64,000 nt of DNA from Charina bottae. Lineage: Eukaryota; Chordata; Lepidosauria; Squamata; Charinaidae. The notes beneath the pieces were generated by a model. It was not told where the DNA came from. It searched no databases and was given only the letters and a program-made list of their open reading frames with translations. Location: positions 5,961,001 through 6,025,000 of the forward strand of contig JALMGJ010000006.1 in assembly GCA_023362775.1 (NCBI GenBank), read 5' to 3'. Numbering within the stretch: the stretch's first letter is position 1; every line of letters begins with the position of its first letter. Shown in pieces: positions 25,500 through 29,640 of this stretch. The position numbers and the translations under genes were made by a program.

Positions 25500-25860
25500 T
25501 AGTGGTTCATTACAAGTGCAATATGAGTCAGTAGCAGTATGATGTCTGTAGCTTGAATCATGTCAACTGGATTTCTATTTTCTCAGTGGAAACGTTTCGC
25601 TCCTTATCCAAGGAGCTTCTTCAGTCTGAGCAAAGTTAGTAAGGGAATCCTTAAATATGTTGCTGTGTGACCTTACACCTGGGGCTAGGTCATGGTTATT
25701 TTTTTGAGATGTTATTTCTAAGTCCCTTTATCATCTAAAGAAGGATCGTTAAGATCACCATGCTGCTGTTGAGCTTGCAAAATGGTCTTAATCTTCCTAG
25801 GCACAGAAGACAAAGCAGGGAGGAACATAGACATAGCAGTATGATGTGGCTGCAGAAAAG
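25500..25860 (-). mobile_element. Penelope-like LTR fragment with hammerhead-like motif
   Basis: The minus strand carries, at 25624 down to 25592, CTGAAGA, one extra base, stem II GCTCCTT/AAGGAGC (7 bp, perfect, loop GGAT), GAAAC and GTT. Outer CTCA/TGAG can close stem I (25627-25630 with 25582-25585). A 'tagcagtatgatgt' phrase at 25532 and 25836 hints at a local direct repeat. The limits of the element are not resolved. Confidence 0.6.
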
Positions 25861-28172: not shown

Positions 28173-28180
28173 GTCCAGAG

Positions 28181-28395
28181 CAGTGTTTCTCAAAGTTGGC
28201 AACTTTAAGATGGGTGGACTTCAACTTCCAGAATCTGGAAGTTCCCCATGCTGGCTGGGGAATTCTGGGAGTTGAAGTCCACCCATCTTCCTGGCTGGGG
28301 AATTCTGGGAGTTGAAGTCCACCCATCTTCCTGGCTGGGGAATTCTGGGAGTTGAAGTCCACCCATCTGAAAGTTGCCAACTTTGAGAAACACTG
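28181..28395. mobile_element. hAT MITE with 40-bp internal triplication
   Basis: Starts CAGTGTTTCTCAAAGTTGGC and ends GCCAACTTTGAGAAACACTG. It contains three identical 40-bp units beginning CTGGCTGGGGAATTCTGGGA at 28251, 28291 and 28331. Flanks GTCCAGAG and CTCTAGAG match at 6 of 8. The central half-palindrome has been tandemly amplified. Confidence 0.9.
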
Positions 28396-28403
28396 CTCTA
28401 GAG

Positions 28404-28678
28404 TACTGGGAAAGCGAATTGCCTTCACAATAGCAGACCAAGTTTGCACTAGTCACTTTAACTGCTGCATCTTACCACCTGTTCATGTTCAGCTGGTGGT
28501 CCACTACTTTTCCTAAATTGTTTTCACACGCACTGCTCTCACTCCAAGTAAACCTATAGCTATGCATTTGATTTTTCCTGCTCAGATGCAGGACTTTTGC
28601 ACTCGCCATAATAAACGACTCTTTCAGCCAAACTTACTGCAAGTTCCAATCAAAGAGAATATTTGTAGCTCAGGGTTG
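28404..28678. other. Unassigned stretch
   Basis: Nothing recognised. Confidence 0.4.
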
Positions 28679-28721
28679 AACTGGGGAGTCTTTGGTGCTC
28701 TCTGAGCCTTGTTGTTTTCAT

Positions 28722-28761
28722 GCAGACGTTTCATTGCCAGGCTAGGCAACATCTTCAGTGC
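28722..28761 (-). ncRNA. Hammerhead-ribozyme-like motif (left arm)
   Basis: Exact reverse complement of the motif at 28887-28926, so it has the same core. The motif type is known in Penelope-like elements. Activity is unproven. Confidence 0.55.
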
Positions 28762-28886
28762 GAAAAGGGAGTGGAACTTGCTGTCTGTTTATATACCCTG
28801 GCTTTATATACCAACCTGGTTTATATACCAACACAGGCAGGACAAGCCAGGGTATATAAACAGACAGCAAGTTCCACTCCCTTTTC

Positions 28887-28926
28887 GCACTGAAGATGTT
28901 GCCTAGCCTGGCAATGAAACGTCTGC
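28887..28926 (+). ncRNA. Hammerhead-ribozyme-like motif (right arm)
   Basis: CTGAAGA (28890-28896), one extra T, stem II GTTGCC/GGCAAT (28898-28903 with 28910-28915, one G·U), GAAAC (28916-28920), then GTC (28921-28923), the expected cleavage triplet. GCA/TGC (28887-28889 with 28924-28926) begins stem I, and CTTTT/AAAAC-type pairing lies beyond an internal loop. Stem III would be only A-C/G-T with no loop, as in dimer-dependent Penelope hammerheads. The extra base after CTGAAGA departs from the textbook core. Confidence 0.55.
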
Positions 28927-28969
28927 ATGAAAACAACAAGGCTCAGAGAGCACCAAAGACTCCCCAGTT

Positions 28970-29640
28970 ACTGCAAGTTCCTTGGGGAAGTTTTGATGGT
29001 CTCAAAAAACAAACAAAAGCCCCTTTACCTTTATCTCTGCCTAGAAACAAATAAAAGATAGAACTAGCTGTGCAGGCCAGTGACACCGACCGTGACGTTG
29101 TCTGTAGGTTATGATGACACTGAAGCAACTGGCCATAAATACCCAGTTTTCAGCGTCTTCCATCTGACTGGTAGAAACATTAGAAGCCAACATAATTTTG
29201 ATGAGGAGCAATATTGTAGTTTTTATTTGCCAAAAAGGGCTTAAACTGGATAGAGCAGGCAAACACGGCTGGTTCTAGCAATATGCCAGGAACATACGGT
29301 AAGCCAAAAGACAAAGTTAAGAGTTTGACCTGGAAGAAACATGCCCAACACAAGTTCAGATTCCTTCCAGAAAGTTCCCATCGGACACCTCTATGCAGCC
29401 TCCAGAAATGGGGCAGCATATAAGCCAAAGTAGTTATACATACATACATACTTACATACATTTATAATTTAGATTTCTAAGGCCACCAGCTCATCATCGA
29501 CTCAGCATTCCTCCAAGCATTTTCAACTGTGGAAGATTTGGTAAAGTCCTTCATCTGGAATTAAAGAATATTTGGAACCATATATGTCGATATCTTCTTT
29601 TCTGTGATAAAGATAGTGGGCTGGATCCACTATAACTGAA
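28970..29640. other. Unassigned stretch
   Basis: No gene or repeat recognised except a short CATA repeat near 29440-29460. Confidence 0.45.

Follow-up and report, generated by a model that had tools for sequence, protein, structure and literature searches.

The window, by which we mean the whole stretch of 64,000 nucleotides analyzed here, contains a palindrome at positions 28679 to 28969 in which two hammerhead ribozyme-like motifs lie head to head. The question raised by this locus is how a perfect inverted pair of this kind comes to be made, and whether the pair is peculiar to this place or a regular product of the element that left it.

Anatomy of the insertion in the window

The two arms of the inverted repeat (28679-28804 and 28844-28969) are 126 nt each, are separated by 39 nt, and are 100% complementary in a letter-by-letter check, just as the original prediction had described them. 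The spacer consists of 22 nt of filler (28805-28826) and 17 nt of element sequence (28827-28843), and the matches to the element break off at 28804 and restart at 28827. The whole insertion is larger than the palindrome. It spans 320 bp (28648-28967) and is bounded by an exact 14-bp target site duplication (TSD), which bears out the earlier suggestion of an inverted retroelement insertion; the flanking DNA outside it is non-palindromic. On one side the palindrome ends at position +74 of the reading frame of a Penelope-like element (PLE), and the other side is 31 nt longer. The features of the insertion are as follows.

28634..28647, no strand: left copy of the TSD, TTACTGCAAGTTCC, an exact match to 28968-28981
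28648..28804, minus strand: tailed arm, the 3'-end segment of the PLE from ORF +105 back to 5' of the hammerhead, by sequence match
28648..28678, minus strand: 31-nt tail, ORF +75 to +105, missing from the other arm; 52 of 52 one-tail pairs end likewise, at reference 152-159
28648..28752, minus strand: first 105 nt (35 codons) of the PLE frame, with the ATG inside hammerhead stem II, placed as in Anolis PAc
28725..28758, minus strand: hammerhead core CTGAAGA...GAAACGTC of the tailed arm, by pattern match
28805..28826, no strand: 22-nt putative filler between two cDNAs, like the nearby arm TTTATATACC units when compared by eye
28827..28969, plus strand: tail-less arm, reference -16 to 126, by reference match
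28890..28923, plus strand: hammerhead core of the tail-less arm, by pattern match
28896..28969, plus strand: first 74 nt of the PLE frame in the tail-less arm
28968..28981, no strand: right copy of the TSD, with 2 nt of microhomology (TT) at its start that are shared with the end of the arm

Reference positions 1 to 159 match 28804-28646 of the tailed arm at 100%. The target sequence in the window is TTACTGCAAGTT(CC), the bracketed bases being doubtful: GATTGG is the terminus of other family copies, and the final CC may therefore belong to the element, in which case the true TSD would be 12 bp. No pseudo-LTR (pLTR) or tandem copies occur in the window insert; direct tandem pieces are present at L020, L046, L053 and L065. 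Beyond the two arms, the window has no further DNA match to the joined element reference and no protein match to it at E 0.001, and a Pfam search of 10 of the longest open frames in the window returned no gene-naming match, with a few short low-complexity matches in two frames. Near the insertion, three tandem 40-bp units (100%, 100% and 95%) at 28251-28370 lie beside an inverted 61-bp partner at 28174-28234. Of the 18 positions of the target at 28630-28647, 15 agree with the AAACAGACAGCAAGTTCC stretch of the element itself, a score reached by 0 of 6000 random 18-mers from the window. Across the other pairs there was no trend toward element-like targets (best 13 of 18), and we rejected the resemblance as a coincidence, given its absence from the other pairs and the choice of the stretch after it had been seen.

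By its sequence, the insertion is a Penelope-like element. On the minus strand, the left part reads CTGAAG-ATG-TTGCC...GAAACGTC, with 35 open codons that reach the end of the insertion. The element ends at ORF +105, or at +107 counting the GG common in other copies, and the tail-less end falls at about +68 to +77. A 3' terminus that falls within the first part of the ORF, an optional tail of 30 to 40 nt and a TSD, here of 14 bp, are Penelope features. In PAc (Poseidon_Ac of Anolis carolinensis), the frame opens right behind CUGAGG, inside the hammerhead, and reverse transcription begins internally, 111 to 118 nt into the frame (PMC11167929). The window element has its ATG at the same place, right after CTGARG in stem II, shares the CGAAACGTC core and likewise ends its insert internally. 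An uninterrupted frame of 505 aa lies upstream of the same arm at L021, with a match to RVT_1 above the cutoff (E 2.7e-12) and one to GIY-YIG below it (E 0.00096; 19.8 bits against a cutoff of 22.6). Both domains are in this upstream frame and not in the window insert itself, which holds the 35 codons only. The assignment to the Penelope-like elements follows from the PAc-like frame position together with the L021 frame.

The motif CTGAAGA, 6-bp stem II, GAAAC and GTC starts at 28890 on the plus strand and at 28758 on the minus strand, in agreement with the original prediction. A bare hammerhead descriptor had four matches in the window, and requiring a stem II of at least 5 bp and a stem I of at least 3 bp left only these two; 100 dinucleotide shuffles of the window gave two bare matches and none with stems. 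The sequence has the minimal type I layout of PLEs, that is, CUGANGA, stem II, GAAAC, a GUC site and a missing or minimal stem III, and the earlier attribution to Penelope-like hammerheads with a minimal stem III holds. Across 150 matched copies, the core is nearly invariant, which partly reflects the youth of the copies. A compensatory double change in stem II (TTACC/GGTAA for TTGCC/GGCAA) occurs in 6 of the first 100 genome matches listed.

No Rfam hammerhead model reached its gathering score anywhere in the window. With the limit relaxed to E 10, the region 28600-29050 gave no hammerhead and 18 matches (16 miRNA families and 2 others), all under their cutoffs; the miRNA-type matches simply reflect the hairpin. 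This negative result of the covariance models proposed earlier is not decisive because the core matches an Anolis PLE hammerhead with reported protein-assisted cleavage (PMC11167929). The lowest-energy fold predicted for the single motif alone is not the hammerhead fold. For the transcript of the whole insertion, the predicted fold is one long hairpin (-269.9 kcal/mol; shuffles averaged -87.2), as had been supposed. The accompanying idea that it would hold two hammerheads fails, since the motifs are on opposite strands and any transcript carries one hammerhead and one antisense copy. Cleavage in PAc required the PLE protein, and PAc hammerhead mutants still inserted (PMC11167929); therefore, we claim no role for the hammerhead in the window insertion, and it is best seen as a normal part of the element RNA that need not act in the insertion reaction. 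In viral and prokaryote genome collections, which are not expected to contain reptile DNA, the hammerhead patterns had no matches.

Head-to-head pairs in the host genome

Inverted pairs recur in the host genome (1.80 Gb, 278 contigs). The hammerhead pattern CTGANGATGNNNNCNNNNNNGNNNATGAAACGTC has 13,466 exact genome matches and its reversed control has none. Among the first 100 matches listed, 9 of 9 neighbors closer than 1 kb and 12 of 12 closer than 2.5 kb are head to head, and extending the distance to 10 kb adds two minus-minus, one plus-plus and one plus-minus arrangement. The claim that such a pair is unusual thus does not hold for this genome.

We examined 85 loci, comprising all 40 places scored among 265 candidates and pair-like places drawn from 40 scored each of 1976, 2252, 1771 and 1726 candidates. 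Since the pair-like places were chosen for matches on both strands, they are no measure of pair frequency, which was measured on the orientation-blind first 100 matches listed for each family. L001, L006-L008 and L044 were left out as repeats of places already counted, and the outer ends of L046 and L065 were set by hand for the TSD test.

The two outer ends of a pair are unequal in a regular way. An automatic rule found 63 head-to-head pairs in the 85 loci, and 62 of these have one tailed and one tail-less end; the orientation-blind pairs have one tail in 9 of 9 cases, with one tail-less end cut short at 103. In total, exactly one tail was read in 71 of 72 head-to-head pairs. The exception is L065, where neither arm of the inner pair has a tail but a further direct copy is tailed, so that the outer ends differ. 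At L014, which falls outside the automatic definition, one side ends within the tail (147) and the other at 159, and no TSD is present. The tail-less end is loose (reference 110-129, most commonly 123 and 120) and the tailed end tighter (reference 152-159, with 159 in 34 of 52). Furthermore, microhomology of at least 1 nt with the target is found at 37 of 51 tail-less ends and at 14 of 51 tailed ends. Simple insertions with a tail-less end only also occur (for example, L037 and L039); therefore, the tail-less site is not used solely as a second start.

An exact TSD of at least 8 bp surrounds 51 of the 63 pairs, compared with 10 of 3906 mismatched flank pairs taken as a control, and all 51 are different; the remaining 12 pairs are without a TSD of 8 bp. 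For the orientation-blind pairs, the count is five of nine. The TSDs of the pairs in this genome are mostly 12 to 13 bp long.

Some loci are more complex. At L065, direct tandem copies are joined at the tail-less site (123 joined to -115), and at L046, two inverted copies in a row also have their join at the tail-less site. From their sequence, these joins look as if the reverse transcriptase had switched templates there.

A second hammerhead family, represented in the window by the minus-strand motif at 25624, has 22,490 exact genome matches, with none for the reversed control, and is probably also a PLE, judging from its anatomy. Its copy in the window (25532-25847, hammerhead 25592-25624, minus strand) is a simple insertion with the tail-less end CTACAG, lying between two exact 14-bp copies of ACATCATACTGCTA. 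Among the first 100 matches listed for this family, neighbors closer than 1 kb comprise 18 head-to-head cases and one minus-minus case. We examined 14 of the 18, and 13 of the 14 follow the one-tail rule, one arm ending in CTACAG and the other being 36 to 38 nt longer. The exception (L106) lacks a TSD, and both its arms are tail-less. A TSD of at least 8 bp is present in 12 of the 14 pairs, and the arms are concordant at two variable sites in all 14.

Origin of the inverted arms

We favor, at a probability of roughly 0.75, a single Penelope-like insertion made by two-ended target-primed reverse transcription. The element endonuclease would cut the two strands in a staggered manner, leaving 3' overhangs of about 12 to 14 nt. 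One overhang would prime a cDNA at the precise distal start on the RNA (ORF about +105/+107), giving the tail. The other, annealing through a few bases some 35 nt upstream of that start (ORF about +68 to +77), would begin a tail-less second cDNA. Each cDNA would stop independently upstream of the hammerhead, their ends would be joined with an overlap of 0 to 5 nt or a short filler, and fill-in would create the TSD. In the window, both cDNAs would have stopped close upstream of the hammerhead, leaving a nearly pure palindrome. The element identity, the TSD, the unequal ends, the one-tail rule, the independent 5' extents and the microhomology at the tail-less end can be read directly from the sequence; we infer the order of these steps, the part of the enzymes and of the element protein, and the use of one RNA copied twice or of two RNAs.

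The PAc protein cuts and extends both target strands and initiates reverse transcription at two sites with the tail between them, as in the window family; against the model, the start site in vitro showed no difference between top and bottom strands (PMC11167929). This absence would not contradict two-ended priming if the complex binds the target either way round, yet it is not support for it either. We tentatively go one step further, at somewhat under even odds, and propose that the two break ends are non-equivalent, one always using the tail site and the other the upstream site. The same RNA might be copied twice with the tail occupied by the first cDNA, or a dimeric complex might hold two RNAs asymmetrically; the head-to-head pair would then be what a complete reaction normally yields, and lone tailed or tail-less insertions would be half-reactions. 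PLE proteins are not known to have an RNase H, so the element RNA would be kept.

Self-priming, in which one cDNA snaps back and copies itself, is the chief alternative, and we consider it improbable. It was proposed, with an antisense template, for the Penelope palindromes of Adineta vaga, whose inverted repeats are ascribed to it (PMC3846280), and it would suit the identical arms in the window and the greater likeness of arms within a pair than between loci. The arm extents of the present pairs do not support it. The tail-less arm reaches further 5' in 29 of 62 pairs, the tailed arm in 24, and the two are within 5 nt in 9; thus, neither of the two serves consistently as template for its partner, and this mixture counts against self-priming because one self-priming cDNA would always lengthen the same arm. 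Moreover, the arm matches abut or overlap in 27 of the 62 pairs, with no loop between them (1 to 32 nt lie between in the other 35), and a fold-back should have copied the tail as well.

The likeness of the arms bears on the template. Within a pair, the arms disagree at 101 of the 1444 informative cells; between loci, the mean discordance is 0.207. The A and B lineages are mixed in 1 of 69 pairs, against 17.8 expected at random, a comparison confounded by lineage age. Two freely drawn RNAs are therefore not the rule, again subject to lineage age structure, and most pairs seem, from their sequence, to use RNA of one source. Excess discordance at p<0.01 was found in 8 of 61 pairs, with about 0.6 expected by chance. 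The clearest is L009, whose arms belong to different lineages (7 of 26 informative sites) within one 12-bp TSD; on sequence grounds, this locus needs two templates or later gene conversion, and its two lineages are a further point against self-priming. The template test leaves out L032 and L042, which are not comparable, and the lineage test leaves out 2 of the 72 pairs. A 3-nt AAC deletion at reference 89-91 is present in just one arm of L010, L011, L028, L046 and L060 and is possibly reverse transcriptase slippage. Being an AAC unit in an AAC run, it was dropped as a lineage marker before the final template test.

Two independent adjacent insertions in opposite orientation, the second into or beside an older copy, are very unlikely and largely refuted already. 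The element can enter its own copies, since the tail-less end at L021 abuts opposite-orientation pieces of another copy, as if inserted into a relative, and Anolis PAc cuts its own pLTR junction (PMC11167929). Nevertheless, a single TSD encloses both arms in the window and in the 51 pairs counted above, and all 9 neighbors closer than 1 kb among the first 100 matches listed for this family were head to head. The frequency of inverted pairs could also suggest a mobile fold-back unit copied whole, but we rejected this far-fetched reading on the grounds that spacers, 5' extents and junctions vary by locus; the window spacer is not repeated among the spacers of the other loci compared. Perfect arms with a short spacer do have the look of a fold-back read, and the original prediction had listed an assembly fold-back, but an assembly or library artifact has a negligible chance in view of the non-palindromic flanks, the 31-nt tail on one side only, the 14-bp TSD around the whole, the 62 further pairs with their own junctions, many with clearly diverged arms, and the mutually different TSDs of 51 of the 63 pairs.

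Relation to known elements and implications

PAc differs from the window element in its sequence outside the core, in its preference for ATT-type cuts, and in showing no strand difference in start site in vitro, whereas the two ends in the window family nearly always use different sites (PMC11167929). The Penelope families of Adineta vaga likewise have inverted pLTR pairs and head-to-head palindromes, with an optional 31-bp tail on one of the two inverted pLTRs; unlike the present family, which has mostly 12- to 13-bp TSDs and hundreds to thousands of copies, their TSDs are 8 to 10 bp (PMC3846280). Inverted, tailed Penelope copies were thus already known, and what is new here is the counted one-tail rule and the evidence against self-priming. 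The 5' inversion of L1 arises by twin priming, in which both break ends prime cDNA on the element RNA with microhomology. The inverted portion of L1 comes from another segment farther upstream, whereas here both arms copy the same 3' segment. In searches of open-licence full text, among it passages of PMC7229834, PMC6155905, PMC8969392 and PMC12910113, we found no one-tail count and no two-ended explanation of inverted copies, and the papers listed for the string GAAACGTCTGC were unrelated.

Even a conspicuous, perfect palindrome that carries ribozyme motifs can turn out to be the footprint of an ordinary insertion, and scans for such structures should first check for a TSD and a tail. The later steps of PLE insertion have been called yet to be validated (PMC11167929), and the template question for Penelope palindromes is left open in the work on Adineta vaga (PMC3846280). 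The young, exactly repeated pairs described here offer a countable prediction, namely, one tail per insertion, independent 5' ends, and microhomology on the tail-less side only. These results bear on how Penelope elements complete their insertion and on the reason for the high frequency of inverted copies. If the proposal is true, Penelope palindromes would be traced to non-equivalent break ends instead of self-priming.
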